From positions 1,612,001 to 1,676,000 of the forward strand of contig JAKCFM010000001.1 of NCBI GenBank assembly GCA_025041195.1: 64,000 nt of DNA, in the 5' to 3' direction. The position numbers were made by a program, and so were the translations under genes. The notes under the pieces were generated by a model that saw only the letters and a list, made by a program, of their open reading frames with translations, did no database searches and was not told the DNA's origin. This DNA is from Halobacteriales archaeon YIM A00013 (lineage in GTDB: Archaea > Halobacteriota > Halobacteria > Halobacteriales > Haloarculaceae). This document shows, piece by piece, positions 20,828 to 31,573 of the stretch (positions are counted from its first letter, which is position 1; each line of letters starts with the position of its first letter).

Positions 20828-21934
20828 ATGGGAATGAATATTACGCATGATACGATCGCGGTGCGAGTTCGTGAACGACCGACAGAGCTGATTGTCGGCC
20901 TGATAACAACACTATTTCTTGCAGATTTACTGTTGAAACTACAGGGGACGACCGTCTTACTGTTCGACACGCACATTCTTGGCGGCTCAATAGGACTCTC
21001 CGAGCTGTTCACCTACGTACTGGACGGGTTGATCGTCGGGATTGCGGTCGGATTGGCGGGGATTGGTCTGTCGATGACCTACAGCATTCTCAACTTCGCC
21101 AACTTCGCCCATGGGGAGTATCTCACGAGTGGGGCGTTCGTTGGGTTCTCTACGGCAGCCGTTATTGCTGGGGGGTCGGGGATCGTGGATCGGATGTTGT
21201 TGCAGAGTAATCCTGGTCTCGAGTTGCTTTCGACACCGATTGCGCTCACCGCCGGTCTCATCATGGCTGCAATTAGCACGATCGGGCTGGCACTGCTACT
21301 CGATCGGCTCGTGTACAAACCGATGCGCGATGCCGAAGGGATCTCGTTGTTGATCGCCTCCATTGGCGTTGCGCTGTTGGTTCGCTATTCGATCGCATTC
21401 ATCTGGCAGACGGGTCGCTACGGTGTGACTGGAAGTGCCACCAAAGTCACGATCCTCAATCTGGTGACGCTCACGACACACGAGCTTACCTTACTGGTGT
21501 TGGGTGTCATGTCGATGATTGGCGTTGCGATCATGCTTGAGTTCACCAAACTCGGGACGGCAATGCGCGCGATGGCCGACAACGAATCACTCGCCCGAGT
21601 GAGTGGCATTCCCGTCGAGCAGGTCACGCGACTGACGTGGATCGTTGGCGGGGGGTTGACCGGCATCGCTGGCTATCTGTTCGTGTTGGAGTCGGGGACG
21701 ATCGCGTTCAACTTCGGCTGGATCAACCTGCTGTTGATCTTCTCGGCCGTCATTCTCGGCGGGATCGGATCGGTGTACGGCGCCATGGTTGGTGGCGTGC
21801 TCATCGGGCTGGTCGATAAGCTCGCACAGGTGTGGATCCCGTCAGATCTCACGCGAGCGGCCGTGTTCGTGGTGTTGATCGCCGTCTTGATCGTCCGGCC
21901 AACCGGACTGTTCGGTGGGGTGAAAACCGCATGA
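20828..21934 (+). CDS. livH: Branched-chain amino acid ABC transporter permease LivH
   Basis: This 368-residue inner-membrane permease has about eight to nine hydrophobic helices and the LivH motifs GLSMTYSILNFANFAHGEYLTSGAF and RAMADNESLARVSGIPVEQV, with the ABC-coupling loop following. It pairs with LivM to form the channel of a hydrophobic amino acid transport (HAAT) system. It is the first gene of livHMGF; its stop overlaps the livM start (ATGA). Confidence 0.93.
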   Translation: MGMNITHDTIAVRVRERPTELIVGLITTLFLADLLLKLQGTTVLLFDTHILGGSIGLSELFTYVLDGLIVGIAVGLAGIGLSMTYSILNFANFAHGEYLTSGAFVGFSTAAVIAGGSGIVDRMLLQSNPGLELLSTPIALTAGLIMAAISTIGLALLLDRLVYKPMRDAEGISLLIASIGVALLVRYSIAFIWQTGRYGVTGSATKVTILNLVTLTTHELTLLVLGVMSMIGVAIMLEFTKLGTAMRAMADNESLARVSGIPVEQVTRLTWIVGGGLTGIAGYLFVLESGTIAFNFGWINLLLIFSAVILGGIGSVYGAMVGGVLIGLVDKLAQVWIPSDLTRAAVFVVLIAVLIVRPTGLFGGVKTA

Positions 21935-23226
21935 GTACCAGCGACTTCCGAAGCCGGCTCACTGGGCTCCCAGATGCGCTCTACGTTTTTGGACTGATGG
22001 CCGGGCTGTACGCGGTGTTCACCGGACTCACCGTCCTCCTCAATTTCGAGCTGTCGGGCATCGTGAACACGCTCCGTGCGATCACCTACTTCTCTGCCGT
22101 CTACGCGATGGTCGTCCTGGCGTTGAATCTTCACTGGGGCTACACCGGGCTGTTCAATCTCGGCGTTGCCGGATTCATGGCGGTTGGCGTGTACACCATG
22201 GCGATCGTTAGTGGACCAACAAATCCAGGCCCTGCAGAGATCCCAGGGCTCGGCATGAATCTCTGGGTGGGCGTGGTCGCTGGCGTCGTTATGGCCGCGC
22301 TCGTCGGCGTGCTGGCGTCGCTGCCGGCACTGCGACTGGAAGCCGATTATCTGGCTATTGTAACGCTGGCGCTGTCGGAGATCATTCGGCTGGTGCTCAA
22401 CTCCACGCTGCTCCAGGAGGTAACCGTCGGTGGCGCCACGTTCGGCACTGGCGGCGCAACCGGGTTGACGGTTCAAAACAACCCACAAACCCCGGTGACA
22501 GCGTTTTTCCAATCCGGGCCAGGCAGTGCGCTTACTGATGTGGCGATGGGAATTGGGATCGACCGGCCAACGGTTGTCGAAGGGATTGGCTACGCCATCG
22601 TACTCGTGGTCATTGTTGGCCTGCTATTCGTCTTCATCCGGCGAATTGCCACCTCGCCGTTCGGCCGTGTGCTCAAAGCGATCCGAGAGGACCAGGTAGT
22701 CGCCAGCGCCCTCGGAAAAGACACCCGCCAGTTCAAAATCATCATCTTCGGTGTGGGCTGTGGACTGATGGGACTTGCTGGCATCCTCTGGTACGGGAGC
22801 GATGGCTACATCAATCCGCTCTCGTTCAGACCAAACATCACGTTCTACGTCTTCGTGGCGTTGATTATCGGCGGTGCCGGATCGAATACCGGCAGCATCA
22901 TTGGCGGGTCGATCTTCGCAAGCGTGCTGTTTTACCTGCCACAGTTTCTTGAGCAGAACAGTACCCCCGTCCTCGATGGGATCCAGTCGGTGCTTGGGGG
23001 CTCAACCGCGACACCGCAGACGATCATCGATGCTGGTGGTGCACTCGCTGGGCTGGATCTGACGGCGTTTCTCGCCTACTGCTTTGCAAACATCAGTTCG
23101 CTCAGATTCATCGGGGTGGGCCTCATTCTCATCTATCTGATGCAGCGCCGTCCGGACGGCCTGTTCGGCCACCGGATCGAAACGGCTGCGAGCATCCCGT
23201 TGACACGGGGTGATACCAATGAGTGA
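21931..23226 (+). CDS. livM: Branched-chain amino acid ABC transporter permease LivM
   Basis: This 431-residue second permease of the HAAT system shows LNLHWGYTGLFNLGVAGFMAVGVY and GRVLKAIREDQVVASALGKDTRQFK, the LivM coupling helix. It has around nine to ten transmembrane helices and a periplasmic-facing insertion around residues 180-220. A longer frame opens upstream, but the ATG overlapping the livH stop is the coupled start. It overlaps livG by eight bases. Confidence 0.93.
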   Translation: MSTSDFRSRLTGLPDALYVFGLMAGLYAVFTGLTVLLNFELSGIVNTLRAITYFSAVYAMVVLALNLHWGYTGLFNLGVAGFMAVGVYTMAIVSGPTNPGPAEIPGLGMNLWVGVVAGVVMAALVGVLASLPALRLEADYLAIVTLALSEIIRLVLNSTLLQEVTVGGATFGTGGATGLTVQNNPQTPVTAFFQSGPGSALTDVAMGIGIDRPTVVEGIGYAIVLVVIVGLLFVFIRRIATSPFGRVLKAIREDQVVASALGKDTRQFKIIIFGVGCGLMGLAGILWYGSDGYINPLSFRPNITFYVFVALIIGGAGSNTGSIIGGSIFASVLFYLPQFLEQNSTPVLDGIQSVLGGSTATPQTIIDAGGALAGLDLTAFLAYCFANISSLRFIGVGLILIYLMQRRPDGLFGHRIETAASIPLTRGDTNE

Positions 23227-24016
23227 GGCACCCGATGCGCCCGCGACAGAACCCGTGCTCGCCGTCGATTCGCTCAAAAAACAGTTCGGGGGAATCACGG
23301 CAGTCGAAGACGTTTCGTTCGACATCCAGCCCGGATCGTTGACCGGATTGATCGGCCCGAATGGAGCCGGCAAATCGACGACGTTCAACTGCATTAGCGG
23401 CACATTGGCGCCAACGTCCGGATCGGTTCATTTTCAGGGCGCCGAAATAACCGACGCTCCGCCGCACGTCGTTGCCGAGCATGGGCTGTTCAGAACGTTT
23501 CAGATCGCCCGCGAACTCGAAGAGATGACCGTCCTGGAGAACTTGCTGCTCGCACCGCCCGATCAACGGGGTGAATCGCTCGTCCATGCCGTTACGCCCG
23601 GCCTCCGCCAGCGCGTCAAAGAACAGGAACGCGAGCTACTTGAGCGGGCGTGGGAGCTGCTAGAGCGGTTTGAACTCGACCATCTTGCTCGCGAGTACGC
23701 CGGCTCGCTCTCTGGCGGCCAGCGAAAACTCCTTGAGCTTGCACGCGCGTTGATGGCCGAACCGTCAATGGTGTTGCTCGATGAACCACTTGCAGGCGTC
23801 AATCCGACGCTCGAAACACAGCTGCTCGAAGCGCTCCACGAACTCCGCGAGGAGGGATACACGTTCTTGCTCGTCGAACACGACATGAACGTCATCATGA
23901 ATCACTGCGATCCAATCATTGTCATGCACCAGGGATCGATACTCACCGTCGGCACAGCAGACGACATCAGATCGAACGAGCGCGTAATCGAGGCGTATCT
24001 CGGAGGTGACCAATGA
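23219..24016 (+). CDS. livG: Branched-chain amino acid ABC transporter ATP-binding protein LivG
   Basis: This 265-residue ATPase has Walker A GPNGAGKST, the signature SLSGGQRKLLELARAL, Walker B MVLLDEPLAGVNP and the switch histidine in LLVEHDMNVIM. Extra LivG-type segments such as TFQIARELEEMTVLENL are present. The start is ATG at 23219 inside the livM end; an upstream in-frame ATG three codons earlier is less likely. It couples to livF by an ATGA overlap. Confidence 0.93.
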   Translation: MSEAPDAPATEPVLAVDSLKKQFGGITAVEDVSFDIQPGSLTGLIGPNGAGKSTTFNCISGTLAPTSGSVHFQGAEITDAPPHVVAEHGLFRTFQIARELEEMTVLENLLLAPPDQRGESLVHAVTPGLRQRVKEQERELLERAWELLERFELDHLAREYAGSLSGGQRKLLELARALMAEPSMVLLDEPLAGVNPTLETQLLEALHELREEGYTFLLVEHDMNVIMNHCDPIIVMHQGSILTVGTADDIRSNERVIEAYLGGDQ

Positions 24017-24759
24017 GCGACGCCGCTGCGAGCACGGCCTCCCGTCCGGAGGATCCCGGCATTCTCTCCGTCAGAGATCTTGACGCTGGATACGACGAAC
24101 TGCAGGTGCTCTCTGGCGTGGATCTGGACGTGGCACGCGGCGAGTACGTCACGATCGTTGGCCCAAACGGTGCCGGAAAATCCACCGTCATGAAATCGGT
24201 CTTTGGGCTCACAACGTATTTCGATGGTTCAGTGACGTTCGATGATAGATCGATTGCCCAGCAGCAACCAGAGGAGATTATCCACCACGGGATCAGCTAC
24301 GTCCCCCAGACAGGGAATGTCTTTCCGTCGCTGTCGGTCCGAGAAAACTTAGAAATGGGCGCGTTCATCCTGGAGGACGTTCCTGAACAGCAGATCGAAA
24401 CGATCTTCGATCGGTTTCCGATCCTCCGCGAGCGCCAGTCACAGGCCGCGGGAACGCTCTCCGGGGGGCAGCGCCAAATGCTCGCGATGGGACGGGCACT
24501 GATGCTCGATCCGGAGCTGTTGTTGCTCGATGAACCATCTGCCGGGCTCGCACCGGATCTCGTTGACGAGCTGTTCGATCGAATCGACGCCATCAACGAG
24601 GACGGCACCGCAGTCATGCTCGTCGAACAGAACGCAACCGAGGCACTGCGACGCTGTGACCGGGGCTACGTGCTCGTCCAGGGGGAAAATCGGTTTATGG
24701 ACGACGGCGAGACCTTACTCGCCGATACAACCGTCAGAAAAGAGTTCCTCGGCGGCTGA
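24013..24759 (+). CDS. livF: Branched-chain amino acid ABC transporter ATP-binding protein LivF
   Basis: This 248-residue ATPase has Walker A GPNGAGKST, the LivF-type YVPQTGNVFPSLSVRENLEMG, signature TLSGGQRQMLAMGRAL, Walker B LLLLDEPSAGLAP and the switch region MLVEQNATEAL. It is the last gene of livHMGF. Its stop lies only four bases from the stop of the convergent substrate-binding protein gene. Confidence 0.93.
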   Translation: MSDAAASTASRPEDPGILSVRDLDAGYDELQVLSGVDLDVARGEYVTIVGPNGAGKSTVMKSVFGLTTYFDGSVTFDDRSIAQQQPEEIIHHGISYVPQTGNVFPSLSVRENLEMGAFILEDVPEQQIETIFDRFPILRERQSQAAGTLSGGQRQMLAMGRALMLDPELLLLDEPSAGLAPDLVDELFDRIDAINEDGTAVMLVEQNATEALRRCDRGYVLVQGENRFMDDGETLLADTTVRKEFLGG

Positions 24760-24763
24760 GCGA

Positions 24764-26113
24764 CTACTGGCTCATTGCCGACTGCAGCTTTGCCGAATAC
24801 GATGACTGCTCTTTCTCGAACGCGACTTCTGCCTGCACGGTGCCGCCGGCCTCCTCGAAGGCGCTCACGAACGACTCCGAGAGCGACTGGCCGTATGAGT
24901 TGTTGACGTACATCGTCGCGGCCGTCGTTGCGCCCTTGTCCTCCGCGGCGACCTGCGCGAGCACTTTCCCCTGGAGGGCGTCGCTGGGGGCCGTCCGGAA
25001 GATGAAGTCCGAATCGTCGAGGGGAGTAACCTTTGGCGACGTGGACGAGGGTGAACAGCCAACCACCTTATTTGGAATGTACACCTGGTTTGCAACTTTC
25101 AGATTCACGCCAGACGACAGCGGCCCTGCAATCGCCTGATAGCCGGCGTTAACGAGATTGTTCGCGGCTGAAATCCCGGCCTGCGGATCGGTCTGTGAAT
25201 CAGCCACTCGTTGGTCGATCGTGAGATCGACGTTCCCCTCAAGCTGTTTCACCGGGAGGGTTCCGGCGTCACTCATTGGCTTGCCAAGATCCGCGAGGTC
25301 ACCACTCGTCGCCATCAATGAACCGACCTTCACCGTTCGGTCGCTATCGCTCCCCGGAATTGAGTCGCTACCACCGCCGCCATCGCTCCCACCCTCGAAC
25401 GGGATCGTATCGTCAGTCGAGAGCCCATCACTGCCGTAGGAGAAGATGTCGTATTTGACGGCGCCCATATCGCCGTTCTCATCGAAGTTCACTGCACTCG
25501 ATGCGCCGTTGTAGTTGATCGCGGTCCCAGAGGCCACCGTTTCGACCGCCTCGACGAACGAATCCGGACCGAACTCCTCTCCGTCGGGATTGGCGACCGA
25601 GCGCATCGCATCGCGGATCGCAGGCCCGTCGTTCGATCCGGCCGCAACGTTCGCGAGCACCAGGATGGCTGTCGCGTCGTAGGTGTGTGCTGTAAACACC
25701 CCCGGTTCGGTCCCGTATGCTTCGTTGTAGCGCTGGGCGAAAAAGTCAGCACCCGGACCGGACGCTGCCGGCGCAGTGCCTGAGATGTTGCTAAGATCCT
25801 CGCCCACGTCGTCAGGCAGTGTCTCCGATTTCATCCCATCAGTGATCAGAATCGACGTATCGGTGTCGTACTCGGCGTAGTAATCCGAAAACAGCTGCAC
25901 GCCGCTGGCTGGATAGCCAATGACGATCAGCGCGTCTGGACCATCGCCACCACCATCCGATCCATCAGTTGTCCCCGAGTCCGAGCTATCCTCGGTCGTA
26001 CAGCCTGCCAGCGTTATGAGGCCGGCCGTACTCATCGCACCAATACCACCGAGCACCGCACGGCGACCCATGTAGCGCGAAGATTCATCACGGTTTGTGA
26101 TATCACGTCCCAT
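24764..26113 (-). CDS. Substrate-binding lipoprotein of the Liv transporter, circularly permuted
   Basis: This 449-residue protein begins with a Tat signal and lipobox (RRAVLGGIGA, LAGC, C38), so it is exported and membrane-anchored. After a Ser/Gly/Asp linker the two halves of the Peripla_BP_6 fold appear in reversed order. Residues ~59-240 (PDALIVIGYPASGVQLFSDY to SSAVNFDENGDMGAVKYDIF) are what normally forms the C-terminal part. A linker (GGSDGGGGSD, ~241-258) follows. Residues 259-449 (RTVKVGSLMATSGDLADLGK, AGPLSSGVNLKVANQ, IFRTAPSDALQGKVL, ending SSYSAKLQSAMSQ) are what is normally the N-terminal part. In ordinary relatives, a segment like SAMSQ runs directly into PDALIVIGY. It most likely serves the adjacent livHMGF system. 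The TATA position favours the ATG at 26113 over the GTG at 26125. Confidence 0.85.
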   Translation of the reverse strand: MGRDITNRDESSRYMGRRAVLGGIGAMSTAGLITLAGCTTEDSSDSGTTDGSDGGGDGPDALIVIGYPASGVQLFSDYYAEYDTDTSILITDGMKSETLPDDVGEDLSNISGTAPAASGPGADFFAQRYNEAYGTEPGVFTAHTYDATAILVLANVAAGSNDGPAIRDAMRSVANPDGEEFGPDSFVEAVETVASGTAINYNGASSAVNFDENGDMGAVKYDIFSYGSDGLSTDDTIPFEGGSDGGGGSDSIPGSDSDRTVKVGSLMATSGDLADLGKPMSDAGTLPVKQLEGNVDLTIDQRVADSQTDPQAGISAANNLVNAGYQAIAGPLSSGVNLKVANQVYIPNKVVGCSPSSTSPKVTPLDDSDFIFRTAPSDALQGKVLAQVAAEDKGATTAATMYVNNSYGQSLSESFVSAFEEAGGTVQAEVAFEKEQSSYSAKLQSAMSQ

Positions 26114-26136
26114 CGTGTTCGCCACTATGTGTGCAT

Positions 26137-28488: not shown

Positions 28489-29127
28489 TCACTGATCGTT
28501 GCCAACGCGGATGACCTGCAACAGCGAGAACACTGGCACACCCTCAATTTCATCGACGCCGCGTTTGTCTGCGAGCACGACACACGCTGCTGGCGTGCCA
28601 CCACGTGCCCGAACACCCTCAATTGCTTCGGTCATTGTGGTCCCGCTGGTGATGATATCATCCACAATGTAGCATTCGCGATCCTCGATCTGGGCGAAAT
28701 TCCGCGAGAACGATCCCGCGAGCTCTTCGATATCGCCCTCTTCCCACTGGTGTTTCCGGGGGGTGTACGCGCTCAGATCGGTGTCAAGCTCGCGGGCGAT
28801 CGTTGTCGCAAGCGGCGTCCCCGCCTTCTCAATGCCGATCGTGAGATCGACCGACTCGCCCTCCTTTGAGAGCAGATCCGCCATTGCGTTGCCGACGAAC
28901 GATAGCCGCCGGCTGTCCCGACCGAGTGCGCTCCAGTCGACGTGAATGTCGTGGGGGCCACTGACCGACGGCGCGACTGACGGCGAGGGCTCATCAACGC
29001 TCCCACGCTCGATCAACCAGCTGGCCGTGTCCCTGGAGACGTTCAGCTCGTCGGCGATCTCACCCTTCGAAAGCCCCCGTTCGGTTAGCTCCGCCGCGCT
29101 CTCGATCAGATCGTCAACGTTCTTCAT
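28489..29127 (-). CDS. gfcR: Transcriptional regulator GfcR
   Basis: This 212-residue protein joins an N-terminal helix-turn-helix (LTERGLSKGEIADELNVSRDTASWLIERG, ~15-42) to a phosphoribosyltransferase-like domain with the PRPP-binding motif CYIVDDIITSGTT (~152-164). This is the architecture of GfcR, known in Haloferax as a regulator of glucose and fructose catabolism, rather than of a true orotate phosphoribosyltransferase. A PfkB sugar kinase and an oxidoreductase lie just downstream on the map, and pgk elsewhere in the window could be a target; direct regulation is not shown here. Confidence 0.88.
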   Translation of the reverse strand: MKNVDDLIESAAELTERGLSKGEIADELNVSRDTASWLIERGSVDEPSPSVAPSVSGPHDIHVDWSALGRDSRRLSFVGNAMADLLSKEGESVDLTIGIEKAGTPLATTIARELDTDLSAYTPRKHQWEEGDIEELAGSFSRNFAQIEDRECYIVDDIITSGTTMTEAIEGVRARGGTPAACVVLADKRGVDEIEGVPVFSLLQVIRVGNDQ

Positions 29128-29367: not shown

Positions 29368-29396
29368 CATCACCGACAGTGCTATAGGTGAGTGTA

Positions 29397-30494
29397 ATGA
29401 CTCCCTCCGGACAGACCGCCATCGGAATTATCGGATTGGGAAACATTGGACAGTATCACGCCAACCAGCTCCGATCGCTGGGGACGGAGATATCGGTCAC
29501 CATTGGCGGTGGGATGGATATCGATCGCACTGCGAGAGAGCAGTTCACCGAGTCGTTCGGGGTCACCACATACGAGGACGCCACAGCCCTCTACGACGCG
29601 GTCGATGCAGTGATCATCACCACGCCGAATCGGTTTCACGAACAGTACGCCGTCAGCGCGCTTGAGGCCGGCCTTGACGTGTTGATCGAGAAACCGATCG
29701 CGCACACGATCGAAAGCGCCCAGCGCGTCCGCGAGACCGCGGCCGAATCCGATGGCGACTGTATGGTGGGCTTTCACAATCGCTTTTCCTCTGCCGTGCA
29801 GGTCCTCAAAGAGTACCACCAGGCGGGCCGGTTCGGAGAGCTAACCCATATCGACGCGAACTACATCCGCAGACGGGGCGTTCCCGGACGGGGAACCTGG
29901 TTCACCAGCGAGGCTGACGCTGGCGGCGGTGCACTCATCGATATTGGCGCGCACGCGATTGATCTCGCGTTGTATCTCCTCGATTTCCCGACCGTATCGG
30001 AGGTCACCGGCGTCACTCGGTCGGAGTTTGGCGGCCGGCCTGATTACACGCATCTTGAAATGTGGGGAGACCACGGCGATGGTCCATTTGACGTGGATGA
30101 TTCGGCGAGCGCATTCATTCGCTGTGCAGAAAATCAGACGATCTCGCTCGATGTGGCCTGGGCGACCAACCGACCAGCAACCAACGAGTTCATCGTCACC
30201 GGGACGGAGGCCGGTGCTCGCCTCGATCTAAGCGATGGAACCCTGACGCTGTTTGAGTCCTCTCCGGCCGGCAGTCCACATTTTGCTGATACCGAGATCA
30301 CGACCCGTGATGAGAATCCACACCGGAATGAGCAGCGGTATTTCGTTGAGGAGATCCGGAGCGACTCGCCACTAACAATGAACACGGTCGAAGAAGGACT
30401 CAGTGTGCAGCGCGTGATGGACGCGATCTACCGATCGAGCGATCGAGCCGGAGCCGTACCGATAGAGATGGAACCGCTCTCGACGGCCGATTAA
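29397..30494 (+). CDS. Gfo/Idh/MocA-family NAD(P)-dependent oxidoreductase
   Basis: This 365-residue enzyme has an N-terminal dinucleotide fold (IGIIGLGNIGQYHANQL), the family motif EKPIAHTIESAQRV with the catalytic-type EKP lysine, and a C-terminal alpha/beta domain with GGGALIDIGAHAIDLALYLL. The family oxidises or reduces sugars and inositols; substrate is unknown. ATG at 29397 is preferred over a GTG three codons upstream. Its stop TAA shares the palindrome TTAA with the convergent sugar kinase. Confidence 0.9.
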   Translation: MTPSGQTAIGIIGLGNIGQYHANQLRSLGTEISVTIGGGMDIDRTAREQFTESFGVTTYEDATALYDAVDAVIITTPNRFHEQYAVSALEAGLDVLIEKPIAHTIESAQRVRETAAESDGDCMVGFHNRFSSAVQVLKEYHQAGRFGELTHIDANYIRRRGVPGRGTWFTSEADAGGGALIDIGAHAIDLALYLLDFPTVSEVTGVTRSEFGGRPDYTHLEMWGDHGDGPFDVDDSASAFIRCAENQTISLDVAWATNRPATNEFIVTGTEAGARLDLSDGTLTLFESSPAGSPHFADTEITTRDENPHRNEQRYFVEEIRSDSPLTMNTVEEGLSVQRVMDAIYRSSDRAGAVPIEMEPLSTAD

Positions 30495-31450
30495 CGCCGT
30501 CCAATCGACTGTTCATTCTGGAGGGCTTCAATCGCTGCTGCATCCGGAAACGCACTGACTGCACCGCGTGCCGTTGTGGTGAGCGCGCCCGCTGCGTTCC
30601 CTTGATCGAGCCAGTGCCACGGATCGTCAGCGCCACCGACTATCCCATCGAGCAGGCCAGCCAGAAAAGCATCACCAGCGCCAGTCGTGTCAGTGACTGC
30701 AACCGAGTAGCCTGGATGGTCGATCGCAGTGGGACCAACTGGACTGTTCGCGGTGGCACGCAACAGCGATCCATCCCCGCCCTGGGTGAGCACCACGGTG
30801 TGAACACCAGTCGCGAGCACCGACTGCGCAAGCGCCGCGGGGGTTTCACCGTCGAAGCCCGCGGTTCGACAGTCAGCGGCGGAGCCACAGACGATGTCAG
30901 TGTACGCGAGGACGTCGCGCGCGGTTCGTTCGAACGATTTGTCGGTCCACAGCGATGGCCTGGCGTTGGGATCGTAGACAATGGTACAGCCGGCCGCTGT
31001 CGCTCGGTCAAGGAGGTCGAGAATTGCCGCTCGTGCCCGATCAGCGGCGAGCGCGATCCCACCAACGACGACCCAATCTAGCTGTGCGAGCTGTTCGTCG
31101 GGAACAGCCCCGACTGAAAGGTGAACGTCAGCTGGCCGCTCCCGATAAAACGTGAACGTTCGATCTCCGGCTCCGTCGTGGGTGACGAGGGCGAGTGACG
31201 TCTTTGATTCCGGCGCCCGCTCAATGTATGGTCCCAACAGTCCGATCGCATCGAGGCGTCGCCGCAGAAAATCTGCCAGGGGATCAGCACCGAGACAGCT
31301 CCATAACAGGGGCGCATCGCCGAGGCGTGCGAGGCCAGCCGCCACGTTGGTCGGCCCGCCCCCCATCCGTCGGACGAAAAGATCGTCGTTCCCACCAGCT
31401 GGTACGAGATCGACGAGCGTCTCTCCCACGACGAGAACGGATTCGGTCAT
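30491..31450 (-). CDS. PfkB-family sugar kinase (fructokinase-like)
   Basis: This 319-residue kinase of the ribokinase/PfkB family starts VLVVGETLVDLVP, has GGGPTNVAAGLARLG (first PfkB signature) and closes with the second signature TDTTGAGDAFLAGLLDG, holding the catalytic Asp. The GGGPTNVA pattern is common in fructokinases and 2-keto-3-deoxy-sugar kinases; substrate is inferred only. ATG at 31450 is preferred over a longer frame beginning at 31492. It is convergent with the oxidoreductase, a possible functional neighbour. Confidence 0.85.
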   Translation of the reverse strand: MTESVLVVGETLVDLVPAGGNDDLFVRRMGGGPTNVAAGLARLGDAPLLWSCLGADPLADFLRRRLDAIGLLGPYIERAPESKTSLALVTHDGAGDRTFTFYRERPADVHLSVGAVPDEQLAQLDWVVVGGIALAADRARAAILDLLDRATAAGCTIVYDPNARPSLWTDKSFERTARDVLAYTDIVCGSAADCRTAGFDGETPAALAQSVLATGVHTVVLTQGGDGSLLRATANSPVGPTAIDHPGYSVAVTDTTGAGDAFLAGLLDGIVGGADDPWHWLDQGNAAGALTTTARGAVSAFPDAAAIEALQNEQSIGRR

Positions 31451-31573
31451 GGAATGACAAACGCACCCACCAGGGAAAAGCAGTCGTCTCACTCAAGCTT
31501 GCGGTGGGGAGATTCCATACCGCCGCCTGCTCGTCGTGTAATTGCTTAAATAGCAGCAACCGAATACACGTTC

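Follow-up and report, generated by a model that had tools for sequence, protein, structure and literature searches.

A gene at positions 24764–26113 of the window, the 64,000-nucleotide stretch of DNA analysed here, raises the question of whether a transporter's binding protein is encoded in rotated order and, if so, how and how often such a rotation arose. The gene is encoded on the minus strand, at the coordinates that a sequence-only reading had given, and runs from an ATG at 26113 (an alternative GTG start is possible upstream, at 26125) to a stop codon at 24766–24764. Sequence, Pfam, genome comparison and alignment to the Thermotoga LivK structure 3td9 identify its 449-residue product as a permuted Peripla_BP_6 (LivJ/LivK-type) substrate-binding protein. 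Residues 1–38 (26000–26113) carry a twin-arginine signal and a LAGC lipobox ending at Cys38 (GRRAVLGG...LITLAGC), and a lipobox-like motif is kept in 70 of 74 distinct permuted relatives. A Gly/Ser/Asp-rich spacer (25943–25999) leads from the lipobox to the folded part. Profile blocks, alignment and AlphaFold2 models place next block C, P59 to F239 (25397–25939), which is the C-terminal part of an ordinary protein and contains the second half of lobe 2, the C-terminal part of lobe 1 and the tail strands of lobe 2. By junction comparison, the 20-residue linker EGGSDGGGGSDSIPGSDSDR (25337–25396) then connects the old C-terminus to the old N-terminus. The N-terminal part, T260–Q449, closes the protein with a stop codon directly behind it; block profiles and alignment divide it into block n (residues 260–292, 25238–25336), the first β-α unit of lobe 1, and block N′ (residues 299–447, 24773–25219), the remainder, at whose end SAMSQ forms the new C-terminus. 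All of these features are on the minus strand.

Several alignments establish that this arrangement is a rotation. Peripla_BP_6 matches the protein in two stretches of swapped order, the better of which places residues 260–447 on profile positions 1–187 of 343, and the PF13458 score is 115.5 bits against a cut-off of 31.7. Residues 260–448 align to chain positions 16–202 of 3td9 and residues 58–174 to positions 204–323, so the halves meet and nothing is lost at the cut. Pfam, junction and 3td9 alignments thus agree that the chain departs from the ordinary N-to-C order. The order proposed from sequence, a Tat lipoprotein signal followed by C-terminal part, linker and N-terminal part, is confirmed by Pfam and 3td9, and with it a natural circular permutation, by the lossless rotation and by the same order in other genomes. 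The expected continuation of SAMSQ into PD is likewise present in ordinary relatives, with about three residues in between.

The gene adjoins livHMGF, as had been read from the sequence, and Pfam recognizes all four transporter genes on the plus strand: the Liv-type permeases livH (BPD_transp_2, 20828–21934) and livM (BPD_transp_2, 21832–23226, true start probably further in), and the Liv-type ATPases livG (ABC_tran and BCA_ABC_TP_C, 23210–24016) and livF (24013–24759). Four bases separate the livF stop from that of the binding-protein gene, which is convergent with it. In nearly all loci with flanking sequence, the binding-protein gene of either order follows livHMGF at its 3′ end and points towards livF; because both occupy this same place, the two gene forms, permuted and ordinary, are alternatives at a single locus. 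Further along the window, 28489–29127 (minus) encodes a phosphoribosyltransferase-domain protein with an apparent N-terminal helix-turn-helix, putatively a GfcR-like regulator; a Gfo/Idh/MocA oxidoreductase gene (29388–30494, plus) and a PfkB sugar kinase gene (30491–31492, minus) are near it.

The permutation had been treated as a single oddity; it is instead a widespread, recurrent state. Among 59 relatives, 18 give one collinear match across nearly the whole query at 50–96% identity, and in others the halves match separately, in swapped order. A search of other genomes for the same order, which had been suggested as a check, found the permuted signature, taken as a best E below 1e-100, in about 168 of the 391 haloarchaeal genomes sampled from the class, roughly four in ten, and solely the ordinary one in about 130, both being hand counts. 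Actinarchaeum halophilum YIM 93972 carries the same permuted gene at 96% protein identity on a complete chromosome, and further named permuted records come from strain YIM A00010 and five Haloarcula species; Halobaculum gomorrense, Halococcus morrhuae and Natrialba swarupiae have the ordinary order. With so many independent assemblies showing the same order, chance and misassembly are excluded. Outside Halobacteria, strong matches in 120 genomes of the phylum are ordinary by coordinates (plasmid matches left out) and include no demonstrated permuted member, and many of the weaker matches are single halves. Since the strong matches in the same phylum have the ordinary order, we take that order to be ancestral. 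Pfam and NCBIfam match permuted genes without flagging them, so annotation pipelines pass them as ordinary.

Within the window's genus the gene is patchy, four members (G002, G003, G004 and G006) having no close homologue; the window's own genome has one copy, free of stops. Elsewhere, a permuted gene (L166, G104:C2:2081210-2083870) is apparently interrupted by about 1.4 kb of additional DNA, which may be an insertion element. Probable decaying family members are G107:C1:2821300-2822610, with an in-frame TAG, a frameshifted ordinary gene (L168) and a truncated N-terminal part (L183).

Comparison of the window gene with that of A. halophilum gives dN 0.020 and dS 0.463 (dN/dS ~0.04). The C half (dN 0.026, dS 0.50) and the N half (dN 0.011, dS 0.43) are both constrained under strong purifying selection, in keeping with the earlier view that both are intact. 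All 45 permuted sequences compared have Ser and Thr at the positions matching Ser79 and Thr102 of LBP (1usg); in LivJ and LBP, this Ser and Thr anchor main-chain groups of the ligand. The putative ligand is a hydrophobic amino acid, which the protein would deliver to the permease.

Structure prediction, another suggested check, yields a rotated two-lobed clamp. From an alignment of 45 permuted relatives, AlphaFold2 models the window protein with pLDDT 89.6 and pTM 0.87; a model of an ordinary relative, L019, reaches pLDDT 91.9 and pTM 0.89. After rotation, the secondary-structure elements of the two models match one to one, except for one short helix in the ordinary model, and the window protein is accordingly predicted to have the type I two-lobed fold. 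The ordinary model superposes on 3td9 across 340 residues (Z 41.2), and the window model only at residues 207–397 against chain 1–192 (Z 14.3, 189 residues), the partial superposition expected of a rotated chain under sequential alignment. The second part of the window model also superposes on LivK/LivJ structures. A whole-length match to 5er3 (VIA-align: Z 13.6, rmsd 4.5, 10% identity) was set aside as lobe pseudo-symmetry.

The models also relocate the cut. It had been read as lying exactly at the lobe crossover, with the two lobes in swapped order. In the L019 model it falls at residues ~193–195, in a loop between a helix (185–191) and a strand (198–202) inside lobe 2, well past the first lobe crossover at ~119–124; the crossover reading is therefore wrong, and lobe 2 itself is split rather than exchanged whole. 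Helix–strand loops of this kind in Rossmann-like lobes occupy the pole that points away from the cleft, so the lipid tether would shift from the pole of one lobe to that of the other. The permuted chain is predicted to need four lobe crossings, against three in the ordinary one, as described for TpMglB-2 (PMC4990184).

Classification of the fetched family members with profile HMMs of blocks n, N′ and C revealed three cyclic orders: the ordinary n-N′-C in 68 distinct members, the window's own C-n-N′ (CP1) in 74, and N′-C-n (CP2) in 4 (G017, G332, G398 and G406). In CP2, block n has been displaced again: at these loci (L088:5489-6859, minus strand; L106; L107; L108), the first β-α unit stands at the C-terminus behind a CP1-type linker. 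The CP2 proteins match one another at full length with 65–67% identity, and their genomes span two families and include a single-contig chromosome (G406). One branch rotated again after CP1 to give CP2. CP2 sits inside the permuted clade and is likewise polyphyletic, CP2 as one clade being rejected by the AU test (p=5e-5).

The junctions are constrained in position and variable in sequence. In every lineage the protein ends 1–5 residues past the same helix and restarts at (P/V)D-x-(hydrophobic), and all CP1 clades are cut at the same loop. The joining linker is 18–24 residues long in nearly all permuted proteins, with lineage-specific sequences: EGGSDGGGGSDSIPGSDSDR; SAGDDIPQPEPNGSGSDSGR; GAGLTEEDQNATAEAPVGVDSFE; and EGENPDGAGPSADSSPGGLGR-like. 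Of the earlier impression that the two linkers of the window protein are alike, the shared Gly/Ser/Asp richness stands; the internal one is nevertheless lineage-specific in sequence and near-constant in length. In the small L014 group, the residues before block n (DSFE/EFE) match those of the ordinary sister (SFE), which makes the linker look like the N-terminal spacer of that sister. The motif DSIPG is common to the window linker and one main-clade linker (L004) and could be a trace of one origin; at the corresponding position, an ordinary relative, L023, reads AVPGSEAGR.

To count origins, the blocks were aligned separately, joined in one common order for all members and stripped of linkers, which makes the resulting tree blind to chain order. 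The CP1 proteins form four clades, each with bootstrap 100: a main clade, a Haloarcula group, the window's genus and the L014 group (G014, G037 and G135), the last nested among ordinary genes beside G013. A one-origin topology occurs in 0 of 200 bootstrap trees, and separately run N-half and C-half trees recover the same clades, with one origin in 0% of bootstrap trees. The livHMGF gene tree agrees with the binding-protein tree, and the L014 lineage groups with the ordinary gene L093 in the tree of each half and in that of livHMGF (support 100). AU tests reject all permuted members as one clade (p=4e-6), as well as L014 with the main clade (p=0.002), with the window and Haloarcula lineages together (p=4e-4) and with the window lineage (p=4e-5). 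Joining window and Haloarcula lineages is not rejected on the binding protein alone (p=0.10) or with the linked liv genes added (p=0.22), and joining window and main gives p=0.14. Window, Haloarcula and main together are marginally disfavoured on the binding protein alone (p=0.057) and rejected with the linked genes added (p=0.003); p-values near 0.05 are not to be leaned on, because the clades were named only once the first tree was known. Collectively, these results establish that CP1 arose at least twice. It likely arose three or four times, four on the best tree, a number that we do not claim as shown because a single origin of the window and Haloarcula lineages is not rejected.

We consider it very probable that the gene encodes a working, lipid-anchored binding protein of a branched-chain/hydrophobic amino-acid (HAAT) ABC importer, circularly permuted relative to its orthologues by a change that recurred at one syntenic locus, most likely through tandem duplication and trimming. 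The chain would start in the middle of lobe 2, run through the remaining ordinary C-terminal part, pass over the ~20-residue linker into the N-terminal part and end at the lobe 2 loop. The same two-lobed clamp would form, capture ligand in its cleft and pass it to LivHM/LivGF as usual, with the Tat-exported lipid tether now on lobe 2 instead of lobe 1. The most likely route would be an in-place tandem duplication followed by fusion and loss of the outer halves, a path on which each intermediate could work and which accounts for a signal left intact, a cut without loss and a linker that resembles a spacer. Permutation by duplication is a standard, favoured model for natural permutations (PMC3320104). 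The liv locus does duplicate, since two genomes carry head-to-tail pairs of permuted CP1 genes there (L081, 5492–8307, G158; L122, 5299–8133, G348); in each pair, one copy lacks the lipobox cysteine and keeps the twin-arginine motif. The duplication and outer-half loss first proposed from sequence fits these data; against it, 150 distinct members and their flanking DNA yielded neither a fused tandem nor a half-trimmed intermediate. The route is therefore one that we infer; the absence of intermediates does not exclude permutation by duplication. Four long open frames (G139, G309, G159 and G076) considered as double-length intermediates each proved to be a single permuted gene, and a long ordinary frame (L168) a frameshift.

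The same observations bear on other explanations. A single permutation event, scattered afterwards by reversions or by transfer and gene conversion of each half by a resident ordinary gene, would fit the common loop cut, the 18–24-residue linkers of all lineages and the DSIPG shared by the window and L004 linkers. It would also explain why the window and Haloarcula lineages are not separable with confidence (p 0.10 and 0.22) and why their union with the main clade is marginal on the binding protein alone. We regard it as unlikely, because a single gain needs about eleven reversions (a hand count on the tree), the N-half and C-half trees agree on the clades, and linkers differ between lineages. 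The L014 lineage tells further against it: its neighbour is ordinary L093 whether the tree is built from either half or from livHMGF, and the residues before its block n resemble those of its ordinary sister.

Recurrent permutation might instead have proceeded by gene fission and refusion in the other order, a route in whose favour the missing double-length fused intermediate speaks. The halves occur as separate genes in no genome examined, however, and the few partial members look frameshifted or truncated. The complete Tat lipoprotein signal at the new N-terminus is natural for a trimmed duplicate, and head-to-tail permuted copies stand at the locus in two genomes; on this evidence we find fission and fusion quite improbable. 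An assembly artefact or decaying pseudogene, for which the sole argument is that a swapped order is unexpected, can be dismissed with near certainty given the same order in ~168 genomes, complete chromosomes included, a dN/dS of ~0.04 and a reading frame without stops.

Parallel origin of CP1 three or four times, together with repeated second rotations, might reflect a benefit that surface-anchored haloarchaeal binding proteins draw from moving the tether from lobe 1 to lobe 2. We offer this tentatively and rather doubt it; if true, circular permutation here would be an adaptive, repeatable change and not a frozen accident. Most natural circular permutations are old, happened once and reveal little about how they came about. 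Here, one orthologous, syntenic gene exists in three cyclic orders among close relatives (50–75% identity), and several apparently independent changes at one loop allow direct tests of how permutation happens. The system, a rare natural test bed for the rewiring of protein chains, could also test whether folding or selection determines the cut site, and whether transport depends on where a binding protein carries its lipid tether.

Among known natural permutations, to our knowledge and within the review that treats them, neither the DNA methyltransferases nor saposin/swaposin show one cut recurring among orthologues at a single syntenic locus. The haloarchaeal case resembles both in being natural and in having duplication as the favoured route, and the methyltransferases show intermediates (PMC3320104). 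In the open-access literature we found no description of permuted haloarchaeal, branched-chain or Peripla_BP_6 binding proteins, nor of one permutation recurring at one orthologous locus. What we did not find described, then, is recurrence at one loop of one locus; a permuted type I binding protein as such is known. With ordinary LivJ/LivK HAAT binding proteins (3td9, 1usg), the window protein shares family, predicted fold, transporter neighbourhood and the Ser/Thr positions; it differs in its rotated chain order and in an anchor that would be on lobe 2. Its closest parallel is TpMglB-2 (Tp0684), the glucose-binding lipoprotein of Treponema pallidum, a naturally permuted type I binding protein of solved structure that crosses between its lobes a fourth time, retains the clamp and was proposed as a 'Type Ic' ligand-binding protein (PMC4990184). 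Both are lipoproteins with a permuted type I chain and their own ABC transporter adjoining, and the fourth crossover and clamp fold are predicted for the window protein. TpMglB-2 is bacterial, sugar-binding and MglB-related, whereas the window protein matches LivJ/LivK proteins. In TpMglB-2 the first three strands of the N-lobe moved to the C-terminus, an arrangement nearer to CP2, and the moved part has little sequence similarity to MglB (13%). In the window protein, by contrast, the cut lies in lobe 2, the entire N-terminal part has moved and taken half of lobe 2 with it, both halves are 50–60% identical to orthologues, and the event recurs. The window protein would thus work like Type Ic proteins and is not itself a member.
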